Virus record (IMG/VR): IMGVR_UViG_3300031963_011509
Location: 1-45,276 of that record
DNA from: a virus
Strand: one strand, 5' to 3'
DNA length: 45,276 nucleotides
This document shows, in pieces, positions 3-37,363 of the stretch. How positions within the stretch are numbered: position 1 is the stretch's first letter; the number at the start of each line of letters is the position of its first letter. The notes below the pieces were generated by a model. It was not told where the DNA came from and made no database searches. It worked only from the letters and a program-made list of their open reading frames with translations. The position numbers and the translations under genes are program-made.

Positions 3-1700
3 GAAAATGTTGCACAGTTATATGAAAACCAAGCATCACATTTGATTAACGAAGCTACTTCTGACGGGTCTTCAGGTTCTTTCGAAACTGTTGTATTCCC
101 AATCGTTAGACGTGTATTCTCTAAATTATTAGCAAACGATATCGTTTCTGTACAAGCTATGAACTTACCAATCGGTAAATTGTTCTACTTCGTACCTAAG
201 ATTCAAGGATATTCAGGTGCTACTTCAACTTCAAGTGGTGACCACTACGCACCAATCGGTTCTCCTGGAAACTATCCTGGTGACCCACAAGCAGGTTACA
301 CAGGTTCTGGAGCATATGCTAAAAACCTTTACGATTTGTTCTACGAAGGAAACGAAGCAGCTCTTGACCCACCTGGATTGTTTGACTACTCTAAAGGTCG
401 TTTCGAAATCATCGAAACTGCTGCAGGTGTTGTTAAATGGTCTAACGGAGCATTAGTAAATGCTGACAATGTAAACGACCCAGCATATATCGGTAACACT
501 AGAAAAGTATTATTGAAAATGTGTGGTTTTGCTAACACAGGTGTTGGTAAAATGATTGGTCCTGATGGTAACGAGTATGACACAGAATCTTTCTTGTCTG
601 ACCTTGTTATTGTTAAAGACTCAGGATTAGGAATTGCTACAACTTCTCCATGTACAGTTTCTACTGGACCTTTATTGTTCAGAGTAGTTACTCAAAAATA
701 TGGTCAAGGAATTGTTACTCCTAACTATAATCAAGCAACAGCAGCGTTCTCTTCTCAAGGTAACGGTGGTGTTTATAATGACGTTTGTGACGTTAACGGT
801 TGTATCTACCTTGAAGTAGACCTTTCTTGTCCAGCATGTCCTACATGTGGAAGTGACACTATCGATGGTTACACTGGTACTACTATCACAGGTATCACTT
901 CTGGTGGTTCATTCACAACTTTCTTCAGACGTTACGAAGAGCTAGAATTCGAAGACAAAATTGGTGAAGTTTCTTTCGACCTTCAATCTGTAACTGTTAC
1001 AGTTACTGAAAGAAAGTTAAGAGCACAATGGTCTCCTGAATTAGCTCAAGACGTTGCAGCATTCCACAACATCGACGCTGAAGCTGAATTAACAGCTTTA
1101 TTGTCTGAACAAGTTGCGGCTGAAATTGACCGTGAAATCCTTCGTGATTTACGTAAAGGTGCAGCTTGGAACTTACGTTGGGACTACAACGGATGGAGAA
1201 GACTGTCAAACACAACTTCTTACACTCAGAAAGACTGGAACCAAACTTTGATTACAGCAATCAACCAATTATCTGCACAAATCCACAAGTCAACTCTTCG
1301 TGGTGGAGCTAACTGGATTGTTGTTTCTTCTGAAGTTTCAGCTATCTTTGATGACTTAGAATACTTCCACGTATCTAACGCATCTCCTGAGCAAGACCAA
1401 TATAACATGGGTATTGAAAGAGTAGGTACTTTAGCTGGTCGTTACCAAGTTTATCGTGACCCATACTTCCCACCAAACCAAGTATTGGTTGGTCATAAAG
1501 GTACATCGTTACTTGACACTGGTTACATCTACGCACCGTATGTACCACTTCAATTAACTCCAACTATGTACAATCCGTTCAACTTTACTCCGATTAAGGG
1601 TATCATGACACGTTACGCAAAGAAGATGGTGAACAATCGCTTCTACGGACGTATCACAGTTGATGGTGTTCGCACATTCGATTTAAGAGAGTTGAGATAA
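3..1700 (+). CDS. 23: Major capsid protein, T4 gp23 type (5' partial)
   Basis: Forms the hexameric shell of the head. The frame is open to the left edge (codons from base 3 read ENVAQLYENQASHL), so the true start is outside the window; the in-frame TTG at 42 is internal. The 565 visible residues carry gp23-type blocks: FPIVRRVFSKLLANDIVSVQ and MNLPIGKLFYF near the front, and ERKLRAQWSPELAQD followed by DAEAELTALLSEQ in the core. A variable insertion of about 170 residues lies between them and holds a CPACPTC cluster around visible residue 276. Codons are visibly richer in C and G than in neighbouring genes, as expected for a very highly expressed gene. A strong hairpin terminator follows. The family call is firm; the role of the cysteine loop is unknown. 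Confidence 0.95.
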   Translation, partial: ENVAQLYENQASHLINEATSDGSSGSFETVVFPIVRRVFSKLLANDIVSVQAMNLPIGKLFYFVPKIQGYSGATSTSSGDHYAPIGSPGNYPGDPQAGYTGSGAYAKNLYDLFYEGNEAALDPPGLFDYSKGRFEIIETAAGVVKWSNGALVNADNVNDPAYIGNTRKVLLKMCGFANTGVGKMIGPDGNEYDTESFLSDLVIVKDSGLGIATTSPCTVSTGPLLFRVVTQKYGQGIVTPNYNQATAAFSSQGNGGVYNDVCDVNGCIYLEVDLSCPACPTCGSDTIDGYTGTTITGITSGGSFTTFFRRYEELEFEDKIGEVSFDLQSVTVTVTERKLRAQWSPELAQDVAAFHNIDAEAELTALLSEQVAAEIDREILRDLRKGAAWNLRWDYNGWRRLSNTTSYTQKDWNQTLITAINQLSAQIHKSTLRGGANWIVVSSEVSAIFDDLEYFHVSNASPEQDQYNMGIERVGTLAGRYQVYRDPYFPPNQVLVGHKGTSLLDTGYIYAPYVPLQLTPTMYNPFNFTPIKGIMTRYAKKMVNNRFYGRITVDGVRTFDLRELR

Positions 1701-3006: not shown

Positions 3007-3177
3007 ATGGTAAAAAAAGTTAAATTTCGCTTCTCTAATGATAGAAATGTTTATGATTTGAACATGTCTATTCCTGATTTTAAAAAAATTGATGAAAATG
3101 TTTCTGAGGTTCACGGTGAATATAGGGGGACTTACATTATTTTAAGTAAAAATGAGTATGAAAAAATTCTTAATTAG
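3007..3177 (+). CDS. Small hypothetical protein, 56 aa
   Basis: Not recognised. Begins MVKKVKFRFSND and ends YIILSKNEYEKILN, with a pattern of short alternating strands that suggests a small beta-rich fold. A TTG at 2965 would give 70 residues, but ATG 3007 is preferred because it lies downstream of the TATTTAT motif. Its 3' end overlaps the start of the nuclease gene by 26 bases, so the two are probably translated from one message. Confidence 0.55.
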   Translation: MVKKVKFRFSNDRNVYDLNMSIPDFKKIDENVSEVHGEYRGTYIILSKNEYEKILN

Positions 3178-3739
3178 TTTAATTTTATTAATTCCTTTAT
3201 TTGTTTTTGGACAGCTAAGGGATTCTGTGTTGGTTAAATCACCTATTTTCAAGGTTATGTATTCTGAGACATTGCAACAACCTAAATGGATTGAGTATCA
3301 TGTTGCGTGTGGTGAGGGGGATTTTTCTCGTAAGGGTTTGGACTTTTATGTTTGTGATTCTATTAAGACATCTGACGGTGGTGATTATGAGGCGAATGTT
3401 TGGGACAAGGGTCATTTGGCTCCTGCTGCGGATTTCAACTGTAACAAGGGTTATTTAAAAATGACTTTTTCATATTTGAATTGTGTGTTACAACATGAGA
3501 AGTTGAATCGTGGGGCTTGGAGATTGCTTGAGGCATATGAGAGGGATTTAGCAAAGAAGTATTCTGTTGATGTTAAAATCAAAATGGTTTATTCAAAGAA
3601 GTCATTGGTTTTGAATAGTGGAGCAACTGTTCCTGATGGATTCTATAAAACGATTAAGTATAATAAGGTTGTTGAGGTTTATTATTTTAAAAATGAACCA
3701 CCTGTAACTAATGACTATAAAAAATATAAGATTAAATAA
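3152..3739 (+). CDS. Exported DNA/RNA non-specific endonuclease (NUC/EndA family)
   Basis: 195 residues with a clear Sec signal peptide (MKKFLISLILLIPLFVFG, cleavage near Q). The catalytic block is DKGHLAPAADF (residues about 88-98), matching the DRGH signature of this ββα-metal family with Lys for Arg; the downstream Asn-containing helix is seen in YLNCVLQHEKLNRGAW. These enzymes cut single- and double-stranded DNA and RNA using Mg. A signal peptide places it in the periplasm or outside the cell, where it could destroy DNA at the surface, remove competitors' DNA or help lysis. The start is ATG 3152 or, equally, ATG 3158 (MKKFL). A terminator follows directly. The family call is strong; the role is inferred. 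Confidence 0.88.
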   Translation: MSMKKFLISLILLIPLFVFGQLRDSVLVKSPIFKVMYSETLQQPKWIEYHVACGEGDFSRKGLDFYVCDSIKTSDGGDYEANVWDKGHLAPAADFNCNKGYLKMTFSYLNCVLQHEKLNRGAWRLLEAYERDLAKKYSVDVKIKMVYSKKSLVLNSGATVPDGFYKTIKYNKVVEVYYFKNEPPVTNDYKKYKIK

Positions 3740-3803: not shown

Positions 3804-4592
3804 ATGGAAAATGTTAATGATTTATTAAAACGTCAACTTTTGTTGATGAAATTTGATTCGGGTGTTACCCTTAAAGAGAATTATGAAAAGGTATCTGGAA
3901 AAAATATTTTAACTGAAGGTAAGGCTGATAATGTTAAAAGTATTTTGGACGGTTGTAATAGTAGAGATAATAATCAAGGTAGAATTGTTAGTGATGACGG
4001 AGTATATGCGGTAGTTAATAATTATAACCAAGCCTTTCAAGGTGTTGGTACTGATTTGGATTATTTTAATAGTGCTAACTCAGATGTTTTAAGTAAATTC
4101 TCTTACAGTGATTTATGTAAAGTGAAAGAATATTACCCAAGTGTGGGTGGTGAAGATTTTTATGCGGCTATTGATGGTGACATTGATTATGATAGTGAGT
4201 GGCAAAAAATTCTTGATGCATTTAACGCAGCTAAAGGAAGAACAGTTCCGGCACAACAACAAGGTGGTCAAACACCAACACCAGCACCTGAAGTAATTGC
4301 AAACCCTGAAACGGGTGACAAGTATATGAAACCAGGTGGTTTATCACATACTTTTGATTTCTTCAAAAGAACCTTCCCTTGTGTTTTTGCTCAAAACAGA
4401 GTTGACACTCAAGAAGTTTATAACAATGGTACTTATGACTATATTTTGATTGTTGCACCAGGTGGACAAGTTATTCAAATGTATTTCGATGGATTCTTAA
4501 GAGAACAAAGAACATTGGCTGACGTAACATATAATGGAGCACCTGCTAAAATTTCTTGTAACGGAAATAAAATTCAAATATCTGCAAGATAA
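3804..4592 (+). CDS. Putative virion-internal protein with protease-cleavable N-terminal tag, 262 aa
   Basis: Function unknown. The first 38 residues are an amphipathic leader with two (L/I)-x-E sites, LKE (23-25) and LTE (36-38), like the T4 capsid-targeting sequences cut by prohead protease gp21. Residues about 60-140 are helical and contain QAFQGVGTDLDYF, which resembles a GTD-type (annexin-like) helical repeat. A Gln/Pro/Thr linker (about 145-165) leads to a beta-rich C-terminal domain (172-262). The next gene starts one base after the stop codon, and a third follows, so this is the first gene of a compact unit led by a TATTTAT motif. Packaging in the head is inferred from the tag and from neighbours, not shown. 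Confidence 0.6.
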   Translation: MENVNDLLKRQLLLMKFDSGVTLKENYEKVSGKNILTEGKADNVKSILDGCNSRDNNQGRIVSDDGVYAVVNNYNQAFQGVGTDLDYFNSANSDVLSKFSYSDLCKVKEYYPSVGGEDFYAAIDGDIDYDSEWQKILDAFNAAKGRTVPAQQQGGQTPTPAPEVIANPETGDKYMKPGGLSHTFDFFKRTFPCVFAQNRVDTQEVYNNGTYDYILIVAPGGQVIQMYFDGFLREQRTLADVTYNGAPAKISCNGNKIQISAR

Positions 4593-4593
4593 T

Positions 4594-4950
4594 ATGAAAA
4601 ATAGATTACACGAGTTAGATTTGGGAACTGGTGGTGAAGATTGGAATACACCTCATGAAGGTGGTAGTGGGGACTCTTGGAATACAGAACCTGAAAGAGG
4701 TTCAAGAACACCAAGAAGAACGGTTGACTTATCACCATTGGTTAAAGAAGTTCAAAACAAACTTAAAGAACTTGACGCATCTGTTGTTGTTTCAGGTAAA
4801 ATGGACCAAGAGACAATTAATAAGATAATGTTACAAATAAACAAACTTGTTGAAAAACAGGATAAAGAAGCTGAAGTAAAACGTAAAGAAGAAGAAAGAA
4901 TTGCAGCTATTAAACCTGTTGATTCAGCACTTTCATCAAGAGACCTATAA
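4594..4950 (+). CDS. Putative tagged virion protein with degenerate peptidoglycan-binding-like repeat, 118 aa
   Basis: Starts MKNRLHELDLGTGG, giving an (L/I)-x-E site (LHE) within seven residues. A Gly/Trp/Asn stretch repeats a WNT motif twice (EDWNTPHEGG, DSWNTEPERG). Residues about 48-85 (LVKEVQNKLKELDASVV to QETINKIMLQI) follow the helix pattern of a PG_binding_1 domain, although the central Gly-x-hydrophobic-Gly turn is weak. The end is a charged coiled coil (KLVEKQDKEAEVKRKEEER). The ATG at 4594 lies one base after the previous stop, and its stop codon overlaps the next ATG (TAATG), showing tight translational coupling. An upstream in-frame ATG at 4534 lies inside the preceding gene and is not preferred. 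Confidence 0.6.
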   Translation: MKNRLHELDLGTGGEDWNTPHEGGSGDSWNTEPERGSRTPRRTVDLSPLVKEVQNKLKELDASVVVSGKMDQETINKIMLQINKLVEKQDKEAEVKRKEEERIAAIKPVDSALSSRDL

Positions 4951-5327
4951 TGAACAAATTTATTTTATCCGAATCAGAACGTTCTGAAATATTAAAAAAA
5001 CATTCATCATATAAAAGATATTTGATGGAAAATGTTACCAATTACACTTTGCAAGATTTGCAAACTGTATTACAATCTAAATTAGGTCTTGATTTAGGAA
5101 AGAGTGGTGTTGATGGTAAGTTTGGTAAAATGACCAAAAATGCTATTATCCAAGCTCTTGACATGGTTAAGAATGAGTTTAAACCAATTGAAACAATTAA
5201 AACTTCTGAAGAAAAACCTGGTGAAGAGATTAAAACTCCTGAAGGAAAACCTGAAAGTGGAACGGAGGTCGGTGATGTTAATTTAGCAAATGCTGAAACA
5301 TCTGTGGATACTGCAACACTTTCTTAA
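4950..5327 (+). CDS. Tagged protein with peptidoglycan-binding domain (PG_binding_1 type), 125 aa
   Basis: N-terminal segment MNKFILSESERSEIL to YLMEN contains (L/I)-x-E sites (LSE at 6-8, LME at 25-27). Residues about 32-72 form a recognisable peptidoglycan-binding repeat: LQDLQTVLQSKLGLDLG, then GVDGKFGKMTKNAIIQAL, with the family's V-D-G-x-F-G turn. The C-terminal 50 residues are a Glu/Thr/Pro/Lys-rich tail. It is the last gene of the 3804-5327 unit and converges with the mgsA gene without a visible terminator. A cell-wall-binding part on a small, possibly head-packaged protein suggests delivery to the host envelope during infection; this is inference. Confidence 0.7.
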   Translation: MNKFILSESERSEILKKHSSYKRYLMENVTNYTLQDLQTVLQSKLGLDLGKSGVDGKFGKMTKNAIIQALDMVKNEFKPIETIKTSEEKPGEEIKTPEGKPESGTEVGDVNLANAETSVDTATLS

Positions 5328-5708
5328 TTATAATAAGGATTCAATTAACTTACTTGCGGTAGAATAATTTGTTGCAAGTGGTATATCGTGAACGTTACAA
5401 ATTCTCAATAACATACTAACATCCACTTGGTGTGGATGAACTTCTAAAGGGTCGATAAAGAAAATAACCATATCGACCCTTTTTTCTGTTATTAAAGATG
5501 CTATTTGGGCATCACCACCCATTGGACCACTTAACATCCTTTGAACCTTCTGTAATCCCGCATGTATCAGGTGTTTACCTGTTGTACCAGTTGCGATTAC
5601 CTCAACGCTCTCTGATGTAAAGAAATCAAGTCGTTTCATGACGAATGAGACCATATCCGCCTTCTTTCCATCATGAGATATCAGAGCTATCTTTATCTTG
5701 TCCTTCAT
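5328..5708 (-). CDS. mgsA: Methylglyoxal synthase
   Basis: Converts dihydroxyacetone phosphate to methylglyoxal and phosphate (EC 4.2.3.3), a bypass of lower glycolysis. The 126 residues cover the whole catalytic core: LISHDGKKADM (His12), ATGTTGKHL, MLSGPMGGDAQIASLI (catalytic Asp66), IDPLEVHPHQVDV (His93, Asp96) and IPLATNYSTA. All residues known to matter in the E. coli enzyme have counterparts; it is shorter than the roughly 150-residue bacterial enzymes at both ends. It overlaps the upstream 80-residue gene by 38 bases and shares its promoter. Presence in a phage is unusual and suggests a metabolic helper gene taken from a host. Confidence 0.93.
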   Translation of the reverse strand: MKDKIKIALISHDGKKADMVSFVMKRLDFFTSESVEVIATGTTGKHLIHAGLQKVQRMLSGPMGGDAQIASLITEKRVDMVIFFIDPLEVHPHQVDVSMLLRICNVHDIPLATNYSTASKLIESLL

Positions 5709-5913
5709 GGTCCTGTTGTGTTAAAATTCTTATTGTTTTTGATATTACCTCAGCTTCGATTAATGAATATGCCCCCGCTCTATATGCGTGGGATACTGCT
5801 TCGAGTAATAGGTATTGTGCGGTTGGTTTATCTAATGATAACAACATCACCTCAAATTGTTCGGGTGTATGTATGTTAATTGTACCAAAAAGTTTGGCAA
5901 ATGTGTTTTCCAT
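5671..5913 (-). CDS. Small hypothetical protein, 80 aa, upstream of mgsA
   Basis: Not recognised. Mostly helical (PTAQYLLLEAVSHAYRAGAYSLIEAEVISKTIRIL), with no cysteine, signal or membrane segment. The last 38 bases overlap the mgsA start in another frame, so the pair is probably co-translated. The gene starts at ATG 5913, directly behind a host-like promoter candidate. It may be a phage gene into whose tail mgsA was inserted. Confidence 0.65.
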   Translation of the reverse strand: MENTFAKLFGTINIHTPEQFEVMLLSLDKPTAQYLLLEAVSHAYRAGAYSLIEAEVISKTIRILTQQDHEGQDKDSSDIS

Positions 5914-5918
5914 CTAAT

Positions 5919-5948
5919 CAAATATTTATATAATAATAACTTATACAA
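5919..5948 (-). promoter_or_regulatory. Host-type promoter candidate for the mgsA unit
   Basis: On the minus strand TTG (5946-5948), 19 bases, then AATATTTG (5919-5926), one mismatch from TAnnTTTG. It overlaps the oppositely oriented TATTTAT motif of the 5954 gene. Confidence 0.45.
5923..5929 (+). promoter_or_regulatory. Putative late promoter (TATTTAT motif)
   Basis: AATATTTATATAATAATAA, 24 bases before the ATG at 5954, within the host-type promoter of the divergent unit. Confidence 0.45.
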
Positions 5949-5953
5949 TCGTA

Positions 5954-7252
5954 ATGATAAAGAATTTAGACAAGATAATCAAACAAGTTTTAAAAGAAGC
6001 GACGGGGACAGGTGGTGGAGGACGAGGTTCGTATGTATTACCTGTTCAGCCAGGTGTTAAACTCTTTGATAAATCACAACTTGCTCCATTCACAGATGAG
6101 GTGTCTAAGTATATTGATGCTGAATTGGAATACGATAGTTATGACGGACAAATGAGTACTCCAAAAAAACAAATTAAAAAAATGGAGGCTAACGCAAAAA
6201 AAATATCAAAATATAAAAAAGCACATCCTGTTCAAAACGATGATGATGGGGATATCTTAAATAATATTAATATTAAAGAAGCAACAAGTAATGGTGGGGG
6301 TGAATATAATGCTCCATTAAGTTTTGAACACATTGAATGGGAAGAACACACTACGGCACCATATATCAATCACTCAACCCATGAACATAATAAAAAAGGT
6401 AAATTGGGTAATATTCGTGGTAAAGTATCATTTAAACATTGGTTTATGGAAAAAGACCATCCGAATAAAGGTAAAACAAAAAAATTAATAACACCTAAAG
6501 AATATCAAGATGTTGTGAATGAGGATTTGGCGGTATGGTTTGGAACTAAAAAGAAACCTAAAGGAAGTAGTCAACCAAAAGGTCCTTGGGTTAATATTTG
6601 TCGTAAGGATAAGAACGGTAAACACCCACCATGTGGAAGACCTGAAGCCTCTGACAAGGGATATCCTAAATGTCGTGCAGCGGGTGTTGCGGGTAAAATG
6701 TCTGACTCTGAGAAACGTTCAGCATGTCAACAAAAAAGAAAGGCGGAAAAAACACATTCTAAATCAGGTACAGGTAACAAACCAAAGATGGTATCATATA
6801 AAACAAATGAAAATATGGCAAAGAGAATTACAATAACAGAATCACAATTAGAAAGTTTGGTACATTACCTTAGTGAACAAAATACATCAACTAGTATACC
6901 TCCAATAAATTTGGCGTGTTTTGATTTAGGTAATATTACAGGTCCTGGAACACAAATGAAAAACTTGACATTCAAAAGTAAAAATGGTGATAAATACACA
7001 TTTGAAACAACGTCTTTTGATGGTTATCAAAAAAAACAAATTCCAAAAGACTTTACTAAAGTTAAAATAGAAAACCAAGAGTTTAAAGATTTTTTAACAC
7101 GAAAAGGTGTTACGGATGTTGATACTCGCAGTTTTTTATATACCACAAATAACTTTAATCAAAGAGTTTATTGTTCAGTGTTTATTAGAAACAGTCAAGA
7201 CCAAACTTTTGCCGATAATAATACAATCACTACATTAAAAAATCCTAATTAA
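5954..7252 (+). CDS. Mosaic, polyprotein-like protein with repeated protease-site tags and a Cys-rich 'PWVNICR' domain, 432 aa
   Basis: Residues 1-15 (MIKNLDKIIKQVLKE) match the N-terminus of the 8038-8493 product (NLDLKIKKILKE) and end in an (L/I)-x-E site followed by ATGTGGGG. A second cassette, IKEATSNGGG (107-116), repeats that junction. Residues 210-265 carry PWVNICRKDKNGKHPPCGRP, YPKCRAAG and SACQQKRK, a cysteine-bearing basic domain known from phage and giant-virus proteins (family number not verified). Residue 288 begins MAKRITITESQLESLVHYLSEQ, which looks like a third N-terminal tag followed by an independent beta-rich domain (310-432). The layout suggests several head proteins fused in one chain and possibly separated by the prohead protease. 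It converges with 7255 with only two bases between. Confidence 0.7.
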   Translation: MIKNLDKIIKQVLKEATGTGGGGRGSYVLPVQPGVKLFDKSQLAPFTDEVSKYIDAELEYDSYDGQMSTPKKQIKKMEANAKKISKYKKAHPVQNDDDGDILNNINIKEATSNGGGEYNAPLSFEHIEWEEHTTAPYINHSTHEHNKKGKLGNIRGKVSFKHWFMEKDHPNKGKTKKLITPKEYQDVVNEDLAVWFGTKKKPKGSSQPKGPWVNICRKDKNGKHPPCGRPEASDKGYPKCRAAGVAGKMSDSEKRSACQQKRKAEKTHSKSGTGNKPKMVSYKTNENMAKRITITESQLESLVHYLSEQNTSTSIPPINLACFDLGNITGPGTQMKNLTFKSKNGDKYTFETTSFDGYQKKQIPKDFTKVKIENQEFKDFLTRKGVTDVDTRSFLYTTNNFNQRVYCSVFIRNSQDQTFADNNTITTLKNPN

Positions 7253-7254
7253 GA

Positions 7255-7527
7255 TTACTTCTGTACCAAAGAGTCTAATTTATCTAAACCATTCTCATTT
7301 GGGAAATAGTTTTTGATAAAAAGATTTACTTCACTTTCGGACGCACTTTTCAGTTGTCTAACAATATCTTGTTGCACATACCAATGATATGAGTGTTCGG
7401 TTTTTGTTGGAACCACACAAGTCGTTTTTGGTTTACAACAATCTTTTTGTGTATTACAAGATGATACAAAAGCTGATAGAACAGCTAATGCTAATAAAAC
7501 AATTAATTGGTATTTACGGATGTTCAT
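7255..7527 (-). CDS. Small lipoprotein, 90 aa
   Basis: A positively charged start (MNIRKY), a hydrophobic core (LIVLLALAVLSAF) and the lipobox VSSC with Cys24 identify a signal-peptidase II substrate. The mature part has a short Cys/Lys/Thr-rich stretch (CNTQKDCCKPKTTC) and a helical, polar C-terminus. It overlaps the upstream gene by 4 bases (ATGA) and ends two bases from the convergent 5954-7252 gene. Possible roles for a phage lipoprotein are an outer-membrane spanin for lysis or a superinfection-exclusion protein; nothing in the sequence decides between them. Confidence 0.75.
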   Translation of the reverse strand: MNIRKYQLIVLLALAVLSAFVSSCNTQKDCCKPKTTCVVPTKTEHSYHWYVQQDIVRQLKSASESEVNLFIKNYFPNENGLDKLDSLVQK

Positions 7528-7946
7528 GATAAAATTGTTGGTTGATTAATCTTATTATAAATAGTGTCGAGTGAATGCTTGATATGAAACTCCAAATCGT
7601 TTTCCATTCTCATGGCTCTTGCTTCCATTTCCTTGAAGAAATATTTCTCAAGTTTTATCCACTGTTCGTTATTCAATTTAATGAAGTAACTGTATGTGTG
7701 GTTTGTGATTGTTACTTCTCCACCTTCCATAGTGATGAAGATACCGTGTTCTTCATTCTTGATGTAAATCTTATATGAAATTGGTGCGAATAGTAATTCA
7801 GAGTTTTGGTCATGAATTAATTTTCTACAGATGTACGAACATTGTTTTGCGTTGAAACCATGTTTCTCTGTGTCATACGTGTTGCGACGATTTAACTTTC
7901 GTAAGTAAATCTTGTAACGTGCTACTAATCTTTTTATGAATCTCAT
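7524..7946 (-). CDS. Hypothetical protein, 140 aa
   Basis: Not recognised. The basic N-terminus (MRFIKRLVARYKIYLRKLNRRN) is followed by a beta-rich middle (FAPISYKIYIKNEEHGIFITM, GGEVTITNHTYSYFIKL) and a helical tail with many charges. It lies first in a two-gene unit with the lipoprotein and sits about 10 bases behind a near-perfect host-type promoter, suggesting expression early in infection. Confidence 0.65.
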   Translation of the reverse strand: MRFIKRLVARYKIYLRKLNRRNTYDTEKHGFNAKQCSYICRKLIHDQNSELLFAPISYKIYIKNEEHGIFITMEGGEVTITNHTYSYFIKLNNEQWIKLEKYFFKEMEARAMRMENDLEFHIKHSLDTIYNKINQPTILS

Positions 7947-7963
7947 TTATTCTTTATTTGTTA

Positions 7964-7994
7964 CAAAGATATATAAAAAAAGAAATAGTATCAA
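7964..7994 (-). promoter_or_regulatory. Host-type (Bacteroidota sigma-ABfr-like) promoter
   Basis: On the minus strand TTG (7992-7994), 20 bases, then TATCTTTG (7964-7971), an exact match to TTG-N19-21-TAnnTTTG. The start codon at 7946 is 17 bases downstream. This is the best promoter in the window and the main clue to the host phylum. Confidence 0.8.
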
Positions 7995-8006
7995 AATTTT
8001 TTTTTT

Positions 8007-8033
8007 AAAAAAAAAAGGACTTAAAGTCCTTTT
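8007..8033 (-). terminator. Rho-independent terminator of the fibre operon
   Basis: AAAAGGACT-TTA-AGTCCTTTT hairpin followed by ten T on the minus strand, 4 bases after the stop codon of the 8038-8493 gene. It separates the late fibre unit from the 7946 unit. Confidence 0.9.
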
Positions 8034-8037
8034 AATA

Positions 8038-8493
8038 TTAACAGTAAGGTGATGAACACCTTTTCTTACCATCTAAACCTGGCATTTTTCCTTTACATAC
8101 TTGGACAGCGTAACCGTTAGCATATGCTGAAGGGTAAACTTTAAATTTTGATTTGGCGGCTGATTTACCTCTTGAACATAATTTTGTTCCCGCTTTTTTT
8201 CTTCCTTCCATCATGACCATATCTTTATCATCAACATTCATTGATAATTCCATACCGTCTTTTTTGGTTTCATTCATTAAGAAATCAAATACTTGGTCAA
8301 GATTATTTTTAGCTTCAGCAACGTGGTCTTGTGCCCAATCGTGTCCGTTATCCAAAATGGAATCAACCATGTCTCTTTCTAAATCTAATAGAAGGTCACA
8401 TTGTCTTCTCATTTGTTCAAGGTTTGAAAAGAACATATATCTGTCAGATTGTTCTTTAAGAATTTTTTTAATTTTTAAATCTAAGTTGTTCAT
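8038..8493 (-). CDS. Tagged Cys-rich basic protein with YPSAYAN motif, 151 aa
   Basis: N-terminus MNNLDLKIKKILKEQSD is a close match to that of the 5954-7252 product and ends in the (L/I)-x-E site LKE (12-14). The middle (about 25-85) is helical and acidic. The C-terminal 55 residues are basic and cysteine-bearing (GTKLCSRGKSAAKSKFKVYPSAYANGYAVQVCKG, in two parts), a domain seen in other phage and giant-virus proteins and related in style to the Cys domain of the 5954 product. It is the last gene of the fibre unit, 3 bases after the 1374-residue adhesin and directly before a terminator. A DNA-binding protein packaged in the head is a reasonable guess. Confidence 0.65.
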   Translation of the reverse strand: MNNLDLKIKKILKEQSDRYMFFSNLEQMRRQCDLLLDLERDMVDSILDNGHDWAQDHVAEAKNNLDQVFDFLMNETKKDGMELSMNVDDKDMVMMEGRKKAGTKLCSRGKSAAKSKFKVYPSAYANGYAVQVCKGKMPGLDGKKRCSSPYC

Positions 8494-23866: not shown

Positions 23867-24591
23867 TCTTCGTATTTTTTTAAAATTTCACCAATTAGAG
23901 GATTTCTAACAACGTCTTTAGATTCAAATTCAAAAACTCCAACATCATTTAAATTTTTGAATTTTTGTATTGCGTCATATAATCCTGATTGTTTTTTATC
24001 TTTATATCTGTCTGTCTGTTCTAAATCACCTGATATAAAAAATTTACTATTAAAACCAATTCTTGTTAATAATAATTTCATTTGATTAGGTGTTGAATTT
24101 TGTGCCTCCTCAAAAATTAGAATTGAGTTATCTATATTCATACCTCTCATATATGCTAAAGCAAAAACTTCAATAACCTCCATCTGTTTTAATTTTTCTC
24201 TTGATTCTTTTCCAATAATTTTGTTCATTAAGTAATATGATGGAAAAATATAAGGGTCCAATTTTTCCTCAACATTTCCAGGTAGTGAACCAAGTTTTTC
24301 CTCAGCTTCAACTGCCGGTCTAACAATAATGATTTTTTCATATTGTGTGTTTGGGTCAGAAAGTAAATCTAAAGCCGCTTTCATTGCGATATAACTTTTA
24401 CCAACACCAGCAGGTCCTGAACAAATAGTAATTTGTTTACCAACTAATAAATCATAATATTTTTTTTGATTTTCAGATAAAAATTTTTCTTTAGATTTTT
24501 TTTTAATTACTTGTAATATTTGTTCTTTTTTGTTTACTTGAGGTTTAACTTCCTCAGATGTATTTTGATTAACTTTTTTTCTACTTGTCAT
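23863..24591 (-). CDS. phoH: PhoH-family ATPase
   Basis: 242 residues. Walker A GPAGVGKS (59-66), IIIVRPAVEAEEKLG (87-101), the PhoH-typical EEKLDPYIFPSYY, Walker B LIFEEAQN (158-165) and the downstream FISGDLEQTDR. The first 40 residues are a basic, low-complexity lead. PhoH proteins are P-loop ATPases related to the SF1 helicase core, common in marine and freshwater phages; their exact task in infection is not settled. It overlaps genes on both sides by 4 bases. Confidence 0.93.
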   Translation of the reverse strand: MTSRKKVNQNTSEEVKPQVNKKEQILQVIKKKSKEKFLSENQKKYYDLLVGKQITICSGPAGVGKSYIAMKAALDLLSDPNTQYEKIIIVRPAVEAEEKLGSLPGNVEEKLDPYIFPSYYLMNKIIGKESREKLKQMEVIEVFALAYMRGMNIDNSILIFEEAQNSTPNQMKLLLTRIGFNSKFFISGDLEQTDRYKDKKQSGLYDAIQKFKNLNDVGVFEFESKDVVRNPLIGEILKKYEE

Positions 24592-25253
24592 TTTTTGTGA
24601 TTTTTATGTTTTCTTACGATATGTTGAGTATTCGCAATCCTATTTTGAGATTTATTACGTCTTATCATTAATTGGTCTTCTTTAGGATTTAAAAAATTAT
24701 AATTAGAAATAAATGTTGGAATAAGTATAATTTGTTTATTGAAAAACTTGTATACGTTTAACCAAAAATAATAATCTAACGACCAATTTTTATAATCCTC
24801 ATACTTTGGCCATTTAACTGTTTTTAAACATTCAACATGACTAAAAACGTTTCCTGTATCAATCATACTACTTCTAGGAATTGACTCTTTAAGTCTTAAC
24901 TCTCCAGATTTAGTTATTTGCTGACCAACAATAATACCTTTAAAATTTTCTTCACTTATTTTCAAATATTCTTTGTACATCCCTATATTAAAAATAGTGT
25001 CGTCATCTAAACAACAAAAATATCCTTCATTTAAATTTTCAAAAACAAAATTTCGTTTAGTCCATCTTTCTTTATCGTCACAATCAACTTCATAAATTTT
25101 TATATTATCATTGTCCTCTAAAAAAGAATATTCTAATTTATTTGTTTTATTTGACTTGCTAATGTGCCACATTATATCATCGTTTTTTGGAATTGATTCA
25201 TAAATTTGTTCCAAATTTTCGGGTCTATATAATGGTGTAACAATGTGTAACAT
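24588..25253 (-). CDS. GT-A glycosyltransferase, paralogue of the 26696 gene, 221 aa
   Basis: Begins MLHIVTPLYRPENLEQIYES and carries YFCCLDDDTIFN (metal-binding DDD) and LDYYFWLNVYKFF. The same blocks in the same order occur in the 26696-27280 protein (MLHIVTALYRPENL, CFLDDDTIFH, IDYFFWLMVWEFF), so the two are clear paralogues. An in-frame ATG at 25352 would add 33 residues but lies inside the upstream gene; the ATG at 25253 matches the paralogue's start and is chosen. The predicted enzyme is soluble and uses a nucleotide-sugar donor. Confidence 0.75.
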   Translation of the reverse strand: MLHIVTPLYRPENLEQIYESIPKNDDIMWHISKSNKTNKLEYSFLEDNDNIKIYEVDCDDKERWTKRNFVFENLNEGYFCCLDDDTIFNIGMYKEYLKISEENFKGIIVGQQITKSGELRLKESIPRSSMIDTGNVFSHVECLKTVKWPKYEDYKNWSLDYYFWLNVYKFFNKQIILIPTFISNYNFLNPKEDQLMIRRNKSQNRIANTQHIVRKHKNHKK

Positions 25254-25257
25254 TAAT

Positions 25258-25830
25258 TTATTTTTTTGTCTGATTCTTATGTGGAAAGGGGATATTAGGT
25301 ATTTGTTTTTGTAAAAACGGACATATTTTTTCCCATCCGTCACCTTCCTCAAAATTTAAAATTAAAAGTTTATCAGTACCTTTAAAGTATTCAATAATTT
25401 GATTATTTCTGGATTCATATTTTTCAATCATATTAGGTATGTCTGATAAAAAATCATCATTACCATAACATGTTTGTGAAATTGTTTTATAAAACCATCT
25501 ATTTTTTTGTCCTATTTTTTTATTCCATCTTAAACAAGAGTCAACCCATTTTTGACTATCTCTTATTGTTAGTATGAATTTTGAGTCAGGATATTTTTCA
25601 TTAAGTTTTACATAAAAATCAGTATGATTCCATGGTCGGTCTTCAAATGCATCATACTTTAAAACCAAATCATAAAGTTTGGATAGTTTACCTTCATAAT
25701 AGTCAGAAAAATATTTACTATTATTATCATACATAATTTTTTCTGGACAAAATCTATAGTTCAAATGTTTTAACGCAGATGTAAGAGTTGTTGTTCCAGT
25801 TTTATTTTGGCCAATACAGAAAATTTTCAT
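25258..25830 (-). CDS. Sulfotransferase (small PAPS-dependent type), 190 aa
   Basis: MKIFCIGQNKTGTTTLTSAL is the 5'-phosphosulfate-binding loop, and FILTIRDSQKWVDSCLRW the 3'-phosphate-binding segment, of PAPS-dependent sulfotransferases; the overall length and W-rich second half fit the Sulfotransfer_4-like group. It would transfer sulfate from PAPS to a hydroxyl or amine, here most plausibly on a sugar, given the flanking glycosyltransferases. The gene ends 4 bases before the 25253 start. Confidence 0.8.
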   Translation of the reverse strand: MKIFCIGQNKTGTTTLTSALKHLNYRFCPEKIMYDNNSKYFSDYYEGKLSKLYDLVLKYDAFEDRPWNHTDFYVKLNEKYPDSKFILTIRDSQKWVDSCLRWNKKIGQKNRWFYKTISQTCYGNDDFLSDIPNMIEKYESRNNQIIEYFKGTDKLLILNFEEGDGWEKICPFLQKQIPNIPFPHKNQTKK

Positions 25831-25841
25831 TATAACTTATT

Positions 25842-26699
25842 TTAGTAAAAAAAATCAAATAATAAATTATTTTGTGAAATTATTTGATTTATGAGGTTTA
25901 TTTCTTCTTGTGATAATACTTTGAGATAAGTATTAATATTATTAGAATCGATTTCACCGATTAATTTTTTTTTCCAATCCATAGTAATAGATGGTTCATC
26001 AAAAAATTTTTTTGAATTAAAATTCATTTCAACATCTGTAAAAGTGATATTTAAAAAGTTAAATATTTTTTTTATTGAATTTTCAATATCAGATATAATG
26101 TCTTCATAAAATATGATTAAACATCTTTCATTTTTATTTTTTAAAAAAAGAGATATTTTATTATTGTTATCAATCCATCTATTGGTTATTTCTTCTACTG
26201 AATTGGGAAATTTTGGTTTGTATTTTGATTCAGGTAATTCGTTAACTTTTATGTATGATGAAACAACATCTTTAGGATTTCTAATTATAAAAATATATTT
26301 TGGTTCATCATAGATTAACTCAATATCTTCTAAATGATTTAAAAAATAATTGTTTTTATCCCCCCAAATCTCAATATTTTTTTTATTAATTTGATTACCA
26401 TAAAAAACATATATTTTTTCAATTAATTCAAAATAGTTTTTTATTTTTTGTTTCTTCAAATAGACGGATAGGTTTTTCTTATTTAATGACCACCCCTCAA
26501 TTTTTTTAGTTTCAAATAAATCGTCCAAAAACAAATCAATCATTTCCATTTTAAAATTTTTATATTTTTCAAAAAGAAAATGAGAAAACCCACATTCTGG
26601 TGGTACTACAACATTATCATGACTGTTTATTAATACACGTAGTAAAGAAGTTCCAGACCTAGGATTACCTAAAATTATTAATGGTTTATTTTGAATCAT
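25842..26699 (-). CDS. Sulfotransferase (Sulfotransfer_3-like), 285 aa
   Basis: PLIILGNPRSGTSLLRVLIN (5'-phosphosulfate loop) and YIFIIRNPKDVVSSYIKV (3'-phosphate segment) are both intact, followed by IIFYEDIISD. It belongs to a different subfamily from the 25258 product, so two distinct sulfation steps are possible. Highly AT-rich with Lys/Asn/Ile-biased codons, more so than the structural genes. Overlaps the paralogous glycosyltransferase upstream by 4 bases (ATGA). Confidence 0.82.
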   Translation of the reverse strand: MIQNKPLIILGNPRSGTSLLRVLINSHDNVVVPPECGFSHFLFEKYKNFKMEMIDLFLDDLFETKKIEGWSLNKKNLSVYLKKQKIKNYFELIEKIYVFYGNQINKKNIEIWGDKNNYFLNHLEDIELIYDEPKYIFIIRNPKDVVSSYIKVNELPESKYKPKFPNSVEEITNRWIDNNNKISLFLKNKNERCLIIFYEDIISDIENSIKKIFNFLNITFTDVEMNFNSKKFFDEPSITMDWKKKLIGEIDSNNINTYLKVLSQEEINLINQIISQNNLLFDFFY

Positions 26700-27280
26700 C
26701 TATGTCTTTGGTTATTTAATTTATTGTATATTGAAATTGTTTTATTAATTAATTTTACTTTATATTTAAAAAACTCCCATACCATTAACCAAAAAAAATA
26801 ATCAATATTTGAAGTTTTTATATCCTGAGGATTTGGCCATTCAACGTGAGGTAAACAAGAACTATTAGAAATAACATTATTCATATCAATTTTACCTGAT
26901 TTAGGTACAGAAGGTGTTAGTTTTATTCTATTAAATTTATCCATTTGTCTACCAATAATTAATCCTTCAAAGTTTTCATTTTTAACTTTTGAATATTCTA
27001 AATACATATTCTCATGAAAAATGGTGTCATCATCTAAAAAACAAAAATATCCATCTTTTATGTTACTCAAAATTTTTCGTTTTTTTAAATAAATTTCATT
27101 ATCTAAACAATCTACTTCATAAATTTGAATTCGTTTATCTAATAAAATTTCTTGGACTTTAATTTTTTCAGTTTTATCTGATTTTGCAATATGCCAAACT
27201 ATATCCTCATGACTTGGAATTGATTTATAAATTTCCAATAAATTTTCAGGTCTATATAATGCTGTTACAATGTGTAGCAT
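26696..27280 (-). CDS. GT-A glycosyltransferase, paralogue of the 24588 gene, 194 aa
   Basis: MLHIVTALYRPENLLEIYKS, then FCFLDDDTIFHENMY and IDYFFWLMVWEFFKYK align directly with the 24588 product. Slightly shorter at the C-terminus. The pair of paralogues brackets the two sulfotransferases. The DDD supplies the metal-binding site. Sugar specificity cannot be read from the sequence. Confidence 0.72.
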   Translation of the reverse strand: MLHIVTALYRPENLLEIYKSIPSHEDIVWHIAKSDKTEKIKVQEILLDKRIQIYEVDCLDNEIYLKKRKILSNIKDGYFCFLDDDTIFHENMYLEYSKVKNENFEGLIIGRQMDKFNRIKLTPSVPKSGKIDMNNVISNSSCLPHVEWPNPQDIKTSNIDYFFWLMVWEFFKYKVKLINKTISIYNKLNNQRHR

Positions 27281-28009
27281 TTAAAAAAAATTTTTAATTA
27301 TATCTAGATTTTTTAATTCATCTAAATTTTTTCTAAATTTATCAAATTCTAAATTTATAGAATTATCGTCAATTAAAGTGTAACGACCTGTTACACTAGT
27401 ATAAAATGATTTGTTGTAGATATTATTTTCTTTATATATCTTTGAACAAATTTTACCAATATCAATCAAAAACAAATTATTATCAATAATAATGTTTTTT
27501 TTATTATGTCTACCACCCGTCCATTTAAATTCTTTTTTTAATATACAAACTTTTGATTTCCAATTTATGTTTTTTCTATATTTGTTTCTTTGTTCTAAAA
27601 TTGGTAAATCCTCATCTAAAAAATTTTCATCGTAGTCTTGGATAATCTCAATACCAATTGGACAATATAAATTTTCGTTTGTGTCTTCAATATATTTTTT
27701 TAGATTTGGATGGTAAATTAATTCATCTATGTCGGCGTAAACAACAATATAATTTTCTTTTAATAAATTTTTTTGTATTTCATTCTGAAGTGTGACAACT
27801 TTTCCTTTTCCTAATTCATTTTTTTTAATCACTTTAAAATTATCTTCATTAAAATTTTTTAATTTTAAATATTGTTTAAGATTTGTTGAATTTTTTTCAT
27901 TTATTAAAAATAAAAATTCTTGTTTATCAAAAAATTTTGTATAATATGATATGAATTTTTCAGAAAAAAAATTAATTCTATCAATATGAGTTATTAGTTT
28001 ATATTCCAT
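27281..28009 (-). CDS. Putative glycosyltransferase with DxD motif, 242 aa
   Basis: Starts YKLITHIDRINFFSEKFISY and has NYIVVYADIDELIYHPNL, where ADIDE is the metal-binding DxD of a GT-A fold, then FKWTGGRHNKK and NLFLIDIGKI. The second half is Lys/Asn-rich. It resembles glycosyltransferase families with an 'aDvDEf' core. It follows the 26696 gene with no gap and overlaps the acyltransferase by one base. Confidence 0.62.
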   Translation of the reverse strand: MEYKLITHIDRINFFSEKFISYYTKFFDKQEFLFLINEKNSTNLKQYLKLKNFNEDNFKVIKKNELGKGKVVTLQNEIQKNLLKENYIVVYADIDELIYHPNLKKYIEDTNENLYCPIGIEIIQDYDENFLDEDLPILEQRNKYRKNINWKSKVCILKKEFKWTGGRHNKKNIIIDNNLFLIDIGKICSKIYKENNIYNKSFYTSVTGRYTLIDDNSINLEFDKFRKNLDELKNLDIIKNFF

Positions 28010-28653
28010 TATATAGTTTTAATTATTTTACATGGATTACCATAAGCTAAAACGTTATCAGGTATGTCTTTTGTTACTAAAGAACCCCCACCAATAATTG
28101 AGTTATTACCAATTTTAACCCCATCAAAAACATTAACACCAATACCAATTTGACAACTATTACCTATTGTAACATTACCTGCGATATTTGTACCTGGGTT
28201 TATTGTTGTATAGTTCCCAATTGTGGTATGATGACCAATACTCACATTTCGGTTAATAAATACATAATTACCAATTGAAGATTGTCCTGCGATACATACC
28301 ATTGTATTGATTATATTTCCAACTCCAATTTTAACAGTTGATGAAATATCAGAATTTTTAGAAATTAAATTAATAAATTGATTTAAATTAATCTGTTGAA
28401 AATTATTTAATAAATTAATTTTTGTATTTTTTTGTGTAACACCAATAACAAAATTACTATGATAATTTTCTTGAACTTCTTTGAAAAAATTTATTTCAAA
28501 ATTTGAATTAATAAAAGTTTTATTAGGTAATTGAGATAAATTATTAATGATATTTATTTTGGGAAAGTGATTATTACTTTCTAAAATATCAAAAATCATA
28601 GTCAATGTCGCCTCACTAAATCCTAAAATAGTGATATCAGAATTTAAATTCAT
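28009..28653 (-). CDS. Hexapeptide-repeat acyltransferase (PglD/NeuD/PerB-like), 214 aa
   Basis: Rossmann-like front (DITILGFSEATLTMIF) followed by a left-handed beta-helix of hexapeptide repeats (VKIGVGNIINTMVC, SIGNYVFINRNVSIGHHTTIGNYTTI in part, then VTIGNSCQIGIGVNVF and IIGGGSLVTKDIPDN) and the closing YGNPCKIIK. His in SIGHHTTIG stands at the catalytic position of NeuD/PglD-type sugar acyltransferases. In such pathways the enzyme acylates the amino group formed by a DegT aminotransferase, and the aminotransferase gene lies directly upstream with a 4-base overlap. Substrate inferred from neighbours. Confidence 0.85.
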   Translation of the reverse strand: MNLNSDITILGFSEATLTMIFDILESNNHFPKINIINNLSQLPNKTFINSNFEINFFKEVQENYHSNFVIGVTQKNTKINLLNNFQQINLNQFINLISKNSDISSTVKIGVGNIINTMVCIAGQSSIGNYVFINRNVSIGHHTTIGNYTTINPGTNIAGNVTIGNSCQIGIGVNVFDGVKIGNNSIIGGGSLVTKDIPDNVLAYGNPCKIIKTI

Positions 28654-29291
28654 TTTGTTTTATAAACTTCGAATTTACTTAAGTCAGGATATTTTAATTC
28701 TAAATCGTCATTATGTTTTGGTGTTCCATCGTTATTCCAAAATTGATTCATTAATAAAATACCTCTAGCACATAACTCCGGCATCATATAAAAATTCCAT
28801 CCTATTACAGGGTTTATGTCAAAATTATCTTCATGATAAGAGCACTCATCTCTTCCACTAAATCTTGCTTTTTTAAACCATTTATACGCTTCTTCATCAT
28901 CCGTCAATATTGCACCACCTTTAGACAATTTTAAATGTTTATAAGGTCCTGTAAAAGAAACACACATATGTGTGTTTGGTTTATACATGTTGTATGTGAA
29001 ACTTAAAGCACTATCCCAAACTTTAGTGGGGTAAAGTTGATATGAACCTTTTAAGGTTTCTCCACTAACAGGCATAAAATCAATTATACCTCCGGCATGT
29101 ATTATTTCACAAGGTACTGAAGGATATGTCCTTGATGGTATACTAATTTTTTTACCTTGTACTTTTTCATACATTAAACATAAAAAAATTGCGTTAGATT
29201 GATTATCTACTGATACAACAAAAGGTGCTTTTGTATACTCAGAAATACTTTTTTCAAACTGCTCTGTTATTTTGTAAACTCCGTTTGCCAT
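28650..29291 (-). CDS. Compact DegT/DnrJ-family sugar aminotransferase, 213 aa
   Basis: Follows the PLP-binding half of DegT enzymes: QFEKSISEYTKAPFVVSVDNQSNAIFL, in the place of the N-terminal substrate loop, ISIPSRTYPSVPCEIIHAGG, KVWDSALSF (Asp that holds the pyridine nitrogen), SFTGPYKHLKLSKGGAILT (Lys of the PLP Schiff base) and GWNFYMMPELCARGI. Full-length relatives have about 370 residues; here the segment between the third strand and the Asp motif and the whole C-terminal small domain are missing. No frameshift is visible at either end, so this is a minimal form rather than a broken gene. Probable role: amination of a 4-keto-6-deoxy sugar made by the adjacent Gmd. Confidence 0.72.
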   Translation of the reverse strand: MANGVYKITEQFEKSISEYTKAPFVVSVDNQSNAIFLCLMYEKVQGKKISIPSRTYPSVPCEIIHAGGIIDFMPVSGETLKGSYQLYPTKVWDSALSFTYNMYKPNTHMCVSFTGPYKHLKLSKGGAILTDDEEAYKWFKKARFSGRDECSYHEDNFDINPVIGWNFYMMPELCARGILLMNQFWNNDGTPKHNDDLELKYPDLSKFEVYKTK

Positions 29292-30115
29292 AATTTTTTG
29301 TTTTGAAAACCAAATGATTTAAATTCTTTTGGTGTGATTATTCCCAAATCTAAATTTTCCATGATTTTATGAATCCTTTTAAGTAATTCAATATTTGTTG
29401 TTTTAATTTTATCCTTATAATATAAATTATCTTCTAATCCAATACGAATACCGTCAGAAAATGTTAATCCTAAAATATTTGAATCCAATTGAAATTTTCC
29501 AATTCCACCAAAACACATTACTGAATTTTTTGGTTTGTTATTAACGATTGAAGAAACTGTTGATAAATCTAGTTGAGCATTGTATACGTTACCAAAAATA
29601 ACATTTATATAATTAGGTCCAGTTAGAATATTTTTTTCAATAAGGTAATTTGTATAATTTAACATACCCGAATCAAAACATTCAATTTCCGGTATTACTC
29701 CAAATTCTTTCATTTTTTCAATCAATAAAATTATCGTATCAGGTGAATTTAAAGATGCTCCTGTTGGGAAATTCAAAGAAGACATAGTTAAAGACCCCAT
29801 ATCAGGTAATAATTCTAAAACTTCAGTTCGTTTCTCAATCTCGGGAAAATTTCTTCCTGTTAATGAAACACAAATTGTTAAATCAGGACAATATTTTCTT
29901 ATTCCCTCAATAATTGGTCTATAATGTTCACTTTTATAACTGTTTTCTAAAGTGAATGGGTCCCTGGCATGTAAGTGAGTTAATGTTATACCTAATTCAT
30001 ATGCTTGATGAACCTCCTCAATAATTTCTGATGGTAATAAAGGTGCTAAAGAATTTTTTCGATTTGTTTGAGTACCTGTCGGAGTAAAATTTATAATTTT
30101 ATTTTTTTGTGTCAT
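29267..30115 (-). CDS. Beta-keto-acid cleavage enzyme (BKACE / DUF849 family)
   Basis: 282 residues. INFTPTGTQTNRKNSLAPLL, PSEIIEEVHQAYELGITLTH, the metal-binding HLHARD, a central MSSLNFPTG, PEIECFDSG and FGGIGKFQL are the blocks of the Kce/BKACE family. These Zn enzymes condense a beta-keto acid with acetyl-CoA to give acetoacetate and a new acyl-CoA. Set between gmd and the aminotransferase (25-base overlap with the latter), it may supply an unusual acyl-CoA for the acyltransferase two genes on. This role is inferred. Confidence 0.85.
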   Translation of the reverse strand: MTQKNKIINFTPTGTQTNRKNSLAPLLPSEIIEEVHQAYELGITLTHLHARDPFTLENSYKSEHYRPIIEGIRKYCPDLTICVSLTGRNFPEIEKRTEVLELLPDMGSLTMSSLNFPTGASLNSPDTIILLIEKMKEFGVIPEIECFDSGMLNYTNYLIEKNILTGPNYINVIFGNVYNAQLDLSTVSSIVNNKPKNSVMCFGGIGKFQLDSNILGLTFSDGIRIGLEDNLYYKDKIKTTNIELLKRIHKIMENLDLGIITPKEFKSFGFQNKKLWQTEFTK

Positions 30116-30117
30116 AA

Positions 30118-31101
30118 TTAATATATATCTTTATTACGATAATTAACTAACCAATAATCAATCATCTCATCTAACATAGATTCAAATGTGTAGTCATGAG
30201 TCCATCCAGTTGTTTTTATAAGTTTAGAAGAATCCCCTTTTAAATCGTGTAATTCTTCAGGTCTTAAAAATTTCTCATCTTGAGTTACATATTCTTCATA
30301 GTTTAAACCTAATGAAGAAAACACGTAATCACAAAGTTCTTTAACTGAATGAGATATCCCTGTAGAACAAACAAAATCATCAGGATTTTCTAATTGAAGA
30401 ATTTCCCACATTGCTTTAACATAGTCTTTAGCATGCCCCCAATCACGAGTAGCATCAAGATTACCTAATTTAAGTTCGTTAGATAGTCCTAATTTAATCT
30501 TAACCGCTTCTTTACATACTTTATTGGTTACAAAGTTAGTTCCTCTTCTTGGTGATTCATGGTTAAATAAAATACCATTAGAAATGAACATACCATAAGA
30601 GTTTCTATAGTTACGACAAATGTTATAACTGAATACTTTTGCACATCCGTATGGTGAGACAGGGTTCATTGGTGTTGATTCTCTTTGATAACCATCAGAA
30701 TCAATTGAATTACCGAACATTTCTGATGATGATGCTTGGTATATTTTTGTATCAGGTTTTATTAATTTAACCGATTCTAAAAGATTTAACGTACCCAAAC
30801 CTGTAACGTTTGATGTGTATATTGGTTGGTCAAATGAAATTCTAACATGTGACTGAGCCGCCAAATTATATATTTCATCAGGCATTACTTTTTGTATTAC
30901 ATTAATTAATGATGACATGTCTGTTAAATCACCATAATGTAATTTTATTTTATCATATACTTTATCTAATCTTGAGGTTTGATTTTCAGCAACCGAATTT
31001 CTTTTTAATATCCCATGAACTTCATAACCTTTTTCTAATAGAAATTCAGACAAGTAAGAACCATCTTGTCCATTAATACCTGTAATTAATGCTTTCCTCA
31101 T
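30118..31101 (-). CDS. gmd: GDP-mannose 4,6-dehydratase
   Basis: Makes GDP-4-keto-6-deoxy-D-mannose, precursor of GDP-fucose, rhamnose and perosamine. Full length for the short-chain dehydrogenase form (327 residues). NADP loop ALITGINGQDGSYLSEFL, SSSEMFG (catalytic Ser/Glu side), SPYGCAK (Tyr and Lys of the active site), NGILFNHESPRRG and LGNLDATRDWGHAKDYV are all present. It heads the four-gene sugar block gmd-BKACE-aminotransferase-acyltransferase, with only 2 bases to the next gene. The assignment is secure. Confidence 0.95.
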   Translation of the reverse strand: MRKALITGINGQDGSYLSEFLLEKGYEVHGILKRNSVAENQTSRLDKVYDKIKLHYGDLTDMSSLINVIQKVMPDEIYNLAAQSHVRISFDQPIYTSNVTGLGTLNLLESVKLIKPDTKIYQASSSEMFGNSIDSDGYQRESTPMNPVSPYGCAKVFSYNICRNYRNSYGMFISNGILFNHESPRRGTNFVTNKVCKEAVKIKLGLSNELKLGNLDATRDWGHAKDYVKAMWEILQLENPDDFVCSTGISHSVKELCDYVFSSLGLNYEEYVTQDEKFLRPEELHDLKGDSSKLIKTTGWTHDYTFESMLDEMIDYWLVNYRNKDIY

Positions 31102-31115
31102 GTTTTTTAGTTATA

Positions 31116-31886: not shown

Positions 31887-31888
31887 TT

Positions 31889-33042: not shown

Positions 33043-33125
33043 TTTTTTAAAAAAAAATAATCAATCGATTAATAATCTAAACTATTGATTTTATTTATTA
33101 TATTATTTTTTATTTAAATTAAAAT

Positions 33126-36632: not shown

Positions 36633-36636
36633 TTAA

Positions 36637-37362: not shown

Positions 37363-37363
37363 A

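Follow-up and report, generated by a model that had tools for sequence, protein, structure and literature searches.

In phage T4 the prohead protease gp21 cuts after L/I-x-E, and the capsid-targeting sequences are propeptides of 10-19 residues that bind the core; an Asp in place of the Glu prevents processing there, while targeting is kept (PMC9026906). Those of IPI-III and Alt are short N-terminal propeptides, common to unrelated proteins and ending in an L/I-x-E cut (PMC9026906, PMC5694885). In phiKZ and SPN3US the prohead protease likewise cuts after Glu in the propeptides of head and ejection proteins, where cut sites are redundant, and the diverged SPN3US ejection proteins gp53 and gp54 have identical N-termini (PMC5694885, PMC13282480). 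Here we describe a comparable system in the virus record IMGVR_UViG_3300031963_011509, whose complete 45,276 bases, with no sequence beyond, are referred to as the window; it is a fragment of a T4-like phage that begins within the gp23 major capsid gene, the 5' end of which is lost at the contig end. A sequence-only reading of this DNA had proposed T4-like tags, cut at (L/I)-x-E, at the start of proteins 3804, 4594, 4950, 5954, 8038 and 41044, and all the open reading frames (ORFs) and triplets that it listed are found in the sequence.

Beyond the short propeptide, its predicted cut and its presence on unrelated proteins, the likeness to phage T4 extends to a gp21-family protease in most longer relatives and to a capsid protein of the gp23 family, which has a propeptide of its own that closes on this motif. 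The differences lie in the number of tag classes (one in phage T4, about nine here, most of them unlike the T4 sequence), in the number of tagged genes (a handful in phage T4 against about 28 to 40 per large genome here), and in the fact that here orthologues exchange classes, internal tags stand between fused modules and a dedicated gene island exists. In phiKZ and SPN3US, by contrast, the motif is A-x-E or S/A/G-x-E and many propeptides exceed 100 residues, while just eight SPN3US proteins are processed (PMC5694885, PMC13282480). Judged from sequence, it is the scale and modularity that are new: there are many classes, around a tenth of the genes are tagged, and orthologues exchange their tags. 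The searchable literature, whose coverage mostly leaves out subscription journals and preprints, holds no account of a comparable set of tags in phages of this kind.

We read these segments as T4-type capsid-targeting propeptides, greatly expanded and modular, and give this reading, from which we infer virion presence, core binding, cleavage and ejection, a probability of roughly 0.85. Each tag would consist of an N-terminal helix, short and amphipathic, with an (L/I)-x-E site behind it. While the head is assembled, this helix would attach to the scaffold core and bring the protein into the prohead, where a gp21-like (S77) protease, which would also mature the capsid protein at LINE|A (the bar marks the cut), would cut after the Glu and free the tag, and the mature cargo would stay with the DNA and be ejected at infection. 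In this phage lineage the arrangement is modular, with about nine tag classes fitted to unrelated bodies and orthologous bodies that change tags.

N-terminal tags common to unrelated proteins

The sample comprised long stretches from 11 relatives (contigs of 293,850 and 222,829 bases among them), eight related loci with protein 5954 and 80 loci kept of at least 576 confirmed IMG/VR stretches with protein 8038, and ORFs were called by a simple longest-ATG rule. Flavobacterium phage immuto is among the nearest isolates by capsid protein (42% identity), a nucleotide search of the window against phage records gave no match, and Pfam and PHROGs gave almost no annotation for the window's tagged proteins. 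For about 1,300 proteins of the 11 relatives and the window, N-terminal segments of 45 residues were compared all against all, pairs with a similar remainder being dropped, with residues 61-105 (mid) and the last 45 residues (C-terminal) as control segments. Matches between different body families numbered 313 at the N-terminus, against 8 and 4 in the mid and C-terminal controls, respectively.

About nine tag classes are found in the window and the 11 relatives: T1 (ITEEEKNRIL..H...LxEQ, which occurs on 19 body families), T2 (MKKVVRLTESDLxRIVKRVIxEE), T3 (MKYLITESQLDxxIFKYLDNQDF), T4 (MNLQExIRKVLREE; a class label, not the phage), T5 (MNLQEQISRIQSMMGVINE), T6 (LLLMNYDxxKTLTENxxxILNEQ), T7 (MKYLLGYKRGxVISEQ), T8 (NIEDYRKRF...GDVKxLINED) and T9 (ILxEINRxREIMGLxLLxE). 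In the window the tags are 14, 15, 27 and 25 or 38 residues long, and in the relatives 7 to about 40. Matches to the tag profiles are concentrated at N-termini, with a density 10- to 90-fold that of internal protein positions, an outcome that the sequence-only reading had proposed to look for. Its caveat that the triplet is not rare by chance is also borne out, since [LIVM]xE is present in 34% of random internal 23-residue segments, hence the bare triplet is useless as evidence; an LxE count placed after the profile block misleads where the block already holds the site, and orthologue tests were used instead. Some clusters of shared N-termini are ordinary (glycosyltransferases, nucleotide-binding starts, an S21-like protein), and one cluster of small proteins, MLIVKV...ALKxLKSKVIKT, resembles ribosomal protein S21 and is no tag. 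On this sequence evidence, the short N-terminal tags are real and not a product of chance.

For the window's own proteins, leave-out profiles were used from whose training the window and its close relative G009 were excluded (classes T4 and T2 also without 8038 bodies, class T4 also without 5954 bodies), and scores were judged against more than 520,000 internal control positions. The tags claimed for 3804, 4950, 5954 and 8038 hold, with at most two of the more than 520,000 controls scoring as well, whereas the one claimed for 41044 is not supported and that of 4594 finds little support.

Applied genome by genome, the test recovered the known MKTYQEFIAEA pair of phage T4, the positive control, plus two ordinary pairs, and it gave three tag groups in the isolate immuto. 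In Flavobacterium phage vB_FspM_immuto_2-6A four proteins carry MENFDLKKFLVENKLTxNSKLLxE, and the gp21-like protease is KNV73_gp070. In LR756502, a phage record of 642 kb, about 150 of the 953 ORFs carry a T4-like tag, MK(H/Y)LKxY(N/K)xFE(S), in which the position two residues ahead of the Glu is mostly I, L, F or Y; the protease match in this genome is weak. The window tags belong to classes other than that of the phage T4 tag MKTYQEFIAE, likeness to which is typical of such cargo and not defining; look-alikes of it are MKTYKKRINE in relative G001 and MKHLKxY... in LR756502.

Conservation of the final Glu in proteins 8038 and 5954

The strongest evidence for capsid-targeting tags is that among orthologues the tag is exchanged or remade while its Glu stays: in the orthologue sets of 8038 and 5954 the body is conserved, and both the sequence and the length of the tag vary, or its class changes, with the final Glu of [L/I]-x-E invariant. 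The tags of these two proteins had been called related, and both indeed belong to class T4.

Protein 8038 (8038-8493, complementary strand), the most widespread of the tagged proteins with at least 576 confirmed IMG/VR stretches, has a helical body and a basic Cys-rich C-terminus. Its class T4 tag (MNNLDLKIKKILKE, 8452-8493, complementary strand) has the predicted cut ILKE|QSD, and 2 of the more than 520,000 control positions score as well with the leave-out profile. While the body (YMFFSNLEQMRRQC...) is nearly constant over about 80 contigs, it is preceded by either a class T4 tag (M.NLD.IIKKVL.E) or, in some orthologues, a class T2 tag (MKK.IKL.ESDL..IIKK.L.E), followed by a linker of variable length. 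Wherever a listed variant has its tag complete, that tag ends in hydrophobic-x-E, and in an alignment of 35 sequences Glu14 alone is invariant ahead of Arg18. An AlphaFold2 model of low confidence (mean pLDDT 61) has a helix at the tag.

Protein 5954 (5954-7252, forward strand) combines a basic Cys-rich domain (residues ~188-283) with a second, internally tagged module. Its class T4 tag (MIKNLDKIIKQVLKE, 5954-5998, forward strand), whose leave-out score is equalled by at most one of the more than 520,000 control positions, has the predicted cut VLKE|ATGTG. All 42 variants read [LIV]xE|[ASTVI][TSN] at the junction (L in 25, I in 16 and V in 1), against a mean of 2.3 for shuffled leaders, and Glu15 is the sole invariant column before residue 190 in 32 aligned sequences. 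The leaders ahead of it are 7 to about 40 residues long, the longer ones being over-extended ORFs, and are often unrelated in sequence, as in MRRKINE|ATVT, MKLKKQISE|ATGA, MKSIKEIIDKSLGIVINE|ITST and MPNQTLLEIFKKYLESERLKE|STGT. A class T2 tag that the first reading had missed (MAKRITITESQLESLVHYLSE, residues 288-308; 6815-6877, forward strand) stands between the two modules, with 5 of 522,322 control positions as good, and an internal T2 tag is found before the C-terminal module in the L010 and L020 orthologues too. The AlphaFold2 model, again of low confidence (mean pLDDT 53), has a helix at the tag.

The capsid protein offers a comparison for these junctions. Its propeptide of about 60 residues ends in LINE|[AS] in 11 of 11 relatives with full-length genes, and the same motif is found in the window's T4-like gp23 (3-1700, forward strand; PF07068, E 7.7e-74), where the end of the propeptide (ENVAQLYENQASHLINE, 3-53, forward strand) has the predicted cut LINE|ATSDG after base 53. 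One 5954 orthologue reads ILNE|ATSDSSGS and the window capsid protein LINE|ATSDGSSGS; this match of the 5954 junction to the capsid LINE|AT supports cleavage by the capsid-maturing protease over an uncut docking peptide. The gp21-like protease that the sequence-only reading expected to exist (family S77, PF03420) is encoded beside the capsid gene in 14 of the 16 longer relatives. Among them is G009, the closest of the long relatives. Its 8038 protein shares 92% identity with that of the window, and its protease gene is located 2.9 kb upstream of the capsid gene, in a region missing from the window. N-terminal concentration, tag exchange with a kept Glu and a protease in the relatives all speak for the central claim of that reading, namely T4-like tags on a family of cargo proteins that would be cut at (L/I)-x-E.

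Several observations weigh against it. The window itself carries no gp21-like protease, which would lie off the contig, and most tag classes are unlike that of phage T4; class T3 tags (MKYLITESQLD...) have just an early LITE and lack a second [LI]xE where one normally stands. The per-genome test found nothing comparable to the tags in Microcystis phage Mel-JY01, although its capsid and protease belong to the same families. In mean charge and size the tagged bodies do not differ from other proteins, and a structural search with the low-confidence 8038 model gave no match to its fold.

Candidate cargo, gene islands and alternative explanations

About 11% of the genes are tagged in two large relatives. 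In each of the largest two, a single island ahead of the head genes holds most of the tagged genes, 36 of 40 and 26 of 28, respectively (p 2e-17 and 7e-13, for islands both drawn after the data had been seen, the first joining the two contig ends). Neighbouring island genes share tags. A scan of 92 tagged proteins yielded few domains, i.e. peptidoglycan-binding, VanY, phage lysozyme, M23 peptidase, PPK2 and annexin-type repeat (Pfam) and endonuclease VII (PHROGs), a set that suits enzymes acting on the envelope or the DNA at entry; most bodies have no known domain. The tags probably mark proteins for packing into the virus head, and the tagged proteins are perhaps injected into the host. Opinion is evenly balanced on a broader proposal, a modular head address code in which unrelated helix tags, each perhaps for a different part of the core, would mark more than 10% of the genes, tag, cut site and effector would be reshuffled by recombination, and the injected proteome could be read from sequence.

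The alternative that survives best, although we consider it unlikely, accepts that the tags are cut in the prohead but takes the proteins as parts that build the head or condense the DNA and remain in the virion, with no injection for host takeover. The wide conservation of 8038 and 5954 beside the capsid gene and their basic Cys-rich domains are as for structural internal proteins, whereas the location of most tagged genes in islands and the diversity of their bodies (peptidoglycan-binding, VanY, lysozyme, M23, PPK2, endonuclease VII-like) fit better with delivered enzymes. More doubtful still is that the tags are uncut docking peptides for another partner (tail, chaperone or compartment), with the Glu as part of the binding motif. 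The helices of the low-confidence models could bind unprocessed, but the upstream sequence is free in length (7 to ~40 residues) and kind with only [LIV]xE kept, and the junction is the same as in the capsid protein.

It is very improbable that the tags spread as DNA, through duplicated promoters or leaders carrying the first codons. Shared tags among neighbouring island genes would fit such a spread; however, identical tag residues in different genes of the same genome use the same codon at 0.51-0.66 against 0.44-0.51 expected (larger classes), barely above expectation, and the DNA upstream of tagged genes is near background in most classes. The similarity hence lies in the protein and not in the DNA, which argues that selection acts on the peptide. 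Secretion signals, the least credible explanation, would share the N-terminal position, but the tags have no hydrophobic core: in T1-T10 no tagged N-terminus exceeds a hydropathy threshold passed by 10% of all genes.

Large phages have many genes without known function, and which of their products accompany the DNA into the host is usually settled protein by protein. If the tags are head addresses, as the capsid-targeting reading has it, cargo could be listed from sequence alone, with dozens of candidates per large genome. Such cargo would act before any phage gene is expressed, which would make these proteins good candidates for counter-defence and early takeover, and the tags would be ready tools to load proteins into phage heads. 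Since an isolated Flavobacterium phage carries such tags, the idea is open to laboratory test.

Other candidate substrates and neighbouring genes

Protein 3804 (3804-4592, forward strand) has an N-terminus that reads MENVNDLLKRQLLLMKFDSGVTLKE-NYEKVSGKNILTE and carries a class T6 tag (LLLMKFDSGVTLKEN...ILTE, 3804-3917, forward strand) with candidate cuts after E25 and E38; its leave-out score is 23.9, with 1 of 533,626 control positions as good. The body is common to relatives with a different tag, such as L038 and L055, where T1 takes its place. A distant member of this family (noted at the loci L114:8854-9606 and L055:12860-13879) has an annexin-type repeat, behind a glycine-zipper-like hydrophobic stretch, at 29.8 bits in Pfam against a cut-off of 25, the only value used because the very small annexin E-values stem from summed weak repeats. 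The match in the window protein is weak (12.2 bits), and the L055 member shows an extra weak peptidoglycan-binding match.

Protein 4950 (4950-5327, forward strand) is small, with a weak PG_binding_1-like body (Pfam E 0.023, below cut-off), and starts MNKFILSE...YLME, a class T1 tag (FILSESERSEILKKH...YLME, 4950-5030, forward strand; leave-out score 31.0, 1 of 533,626). The candidate tag of protein 4594 (4594-4950, forward strand), MKNRLHE (4594-4614), is very short and weakly supported. The longest ORF there begins at 4534, although the orthologue L009_13231 also begins MKNRLHE. The C-terminal body of 4594 stands behind a 3804-type tag in L010, a fusion found in L010 only, which lends the tag indirect support. 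The tag claimed for the WYL-like protein 41044 (MKLYNTAKSLILE, 41425-41463, complementary strand) is not supported: it is conserved and not exchangeable, and its LILE says little because the rest of the segment is equally conserved. Neither 4594 nor 41044 was matched by any tag-class profile tested.

In the window, the product of 42221-43075 (complementary strand) has an N-terminal domain that ends at about residue 35 at a site (LTE|S, LSE|A, ITE|A or LNE|A) conserved in relatives, and is possibly another protease substrate. Genes G001:57928-59190, which adjoins the terminase gene, and G007:73263-74660 share the same start after the cut, with leaders of unequal length before [IV]NE|AP (MKTYKKRINE|AP and MSNNLERLIRKIVNE|AP). 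The protein between portal and protease, in the place of phage T4 gp67/gp68, is LxE-rich in 4 of 5 relatives, gp67 and gp68 being core proteins that are destroyed; for the scaffold gene ahead of the capsid gene, LxE enrichment is marginal in most relatives. A small opposite-strand ORF just downstream of the portal and before the protease (G001:66230-66415, G009:18370-18558 and others) is ribosomal protein S21-like by eye.

Elsewhere in the window, a methylglyoxal synthase-like domain (5328-5708, complementary strand; PF02142, E 2.8e-16) is located between tagged genes, and a long run of apparent sugar- or glycosyl-transfer genes (24588-37398, complementary strand) extends from PhoH to dUTPase, with a gene content that is not the same as in G009. 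The DNA/RNA non-specific endonuclease encoded at 3152-3739 (PF01223, E 8e-25) starts like a protein with a signal peptide; it is also present in G001 and has a close relative in Flavobacterium phage immuto (54%).

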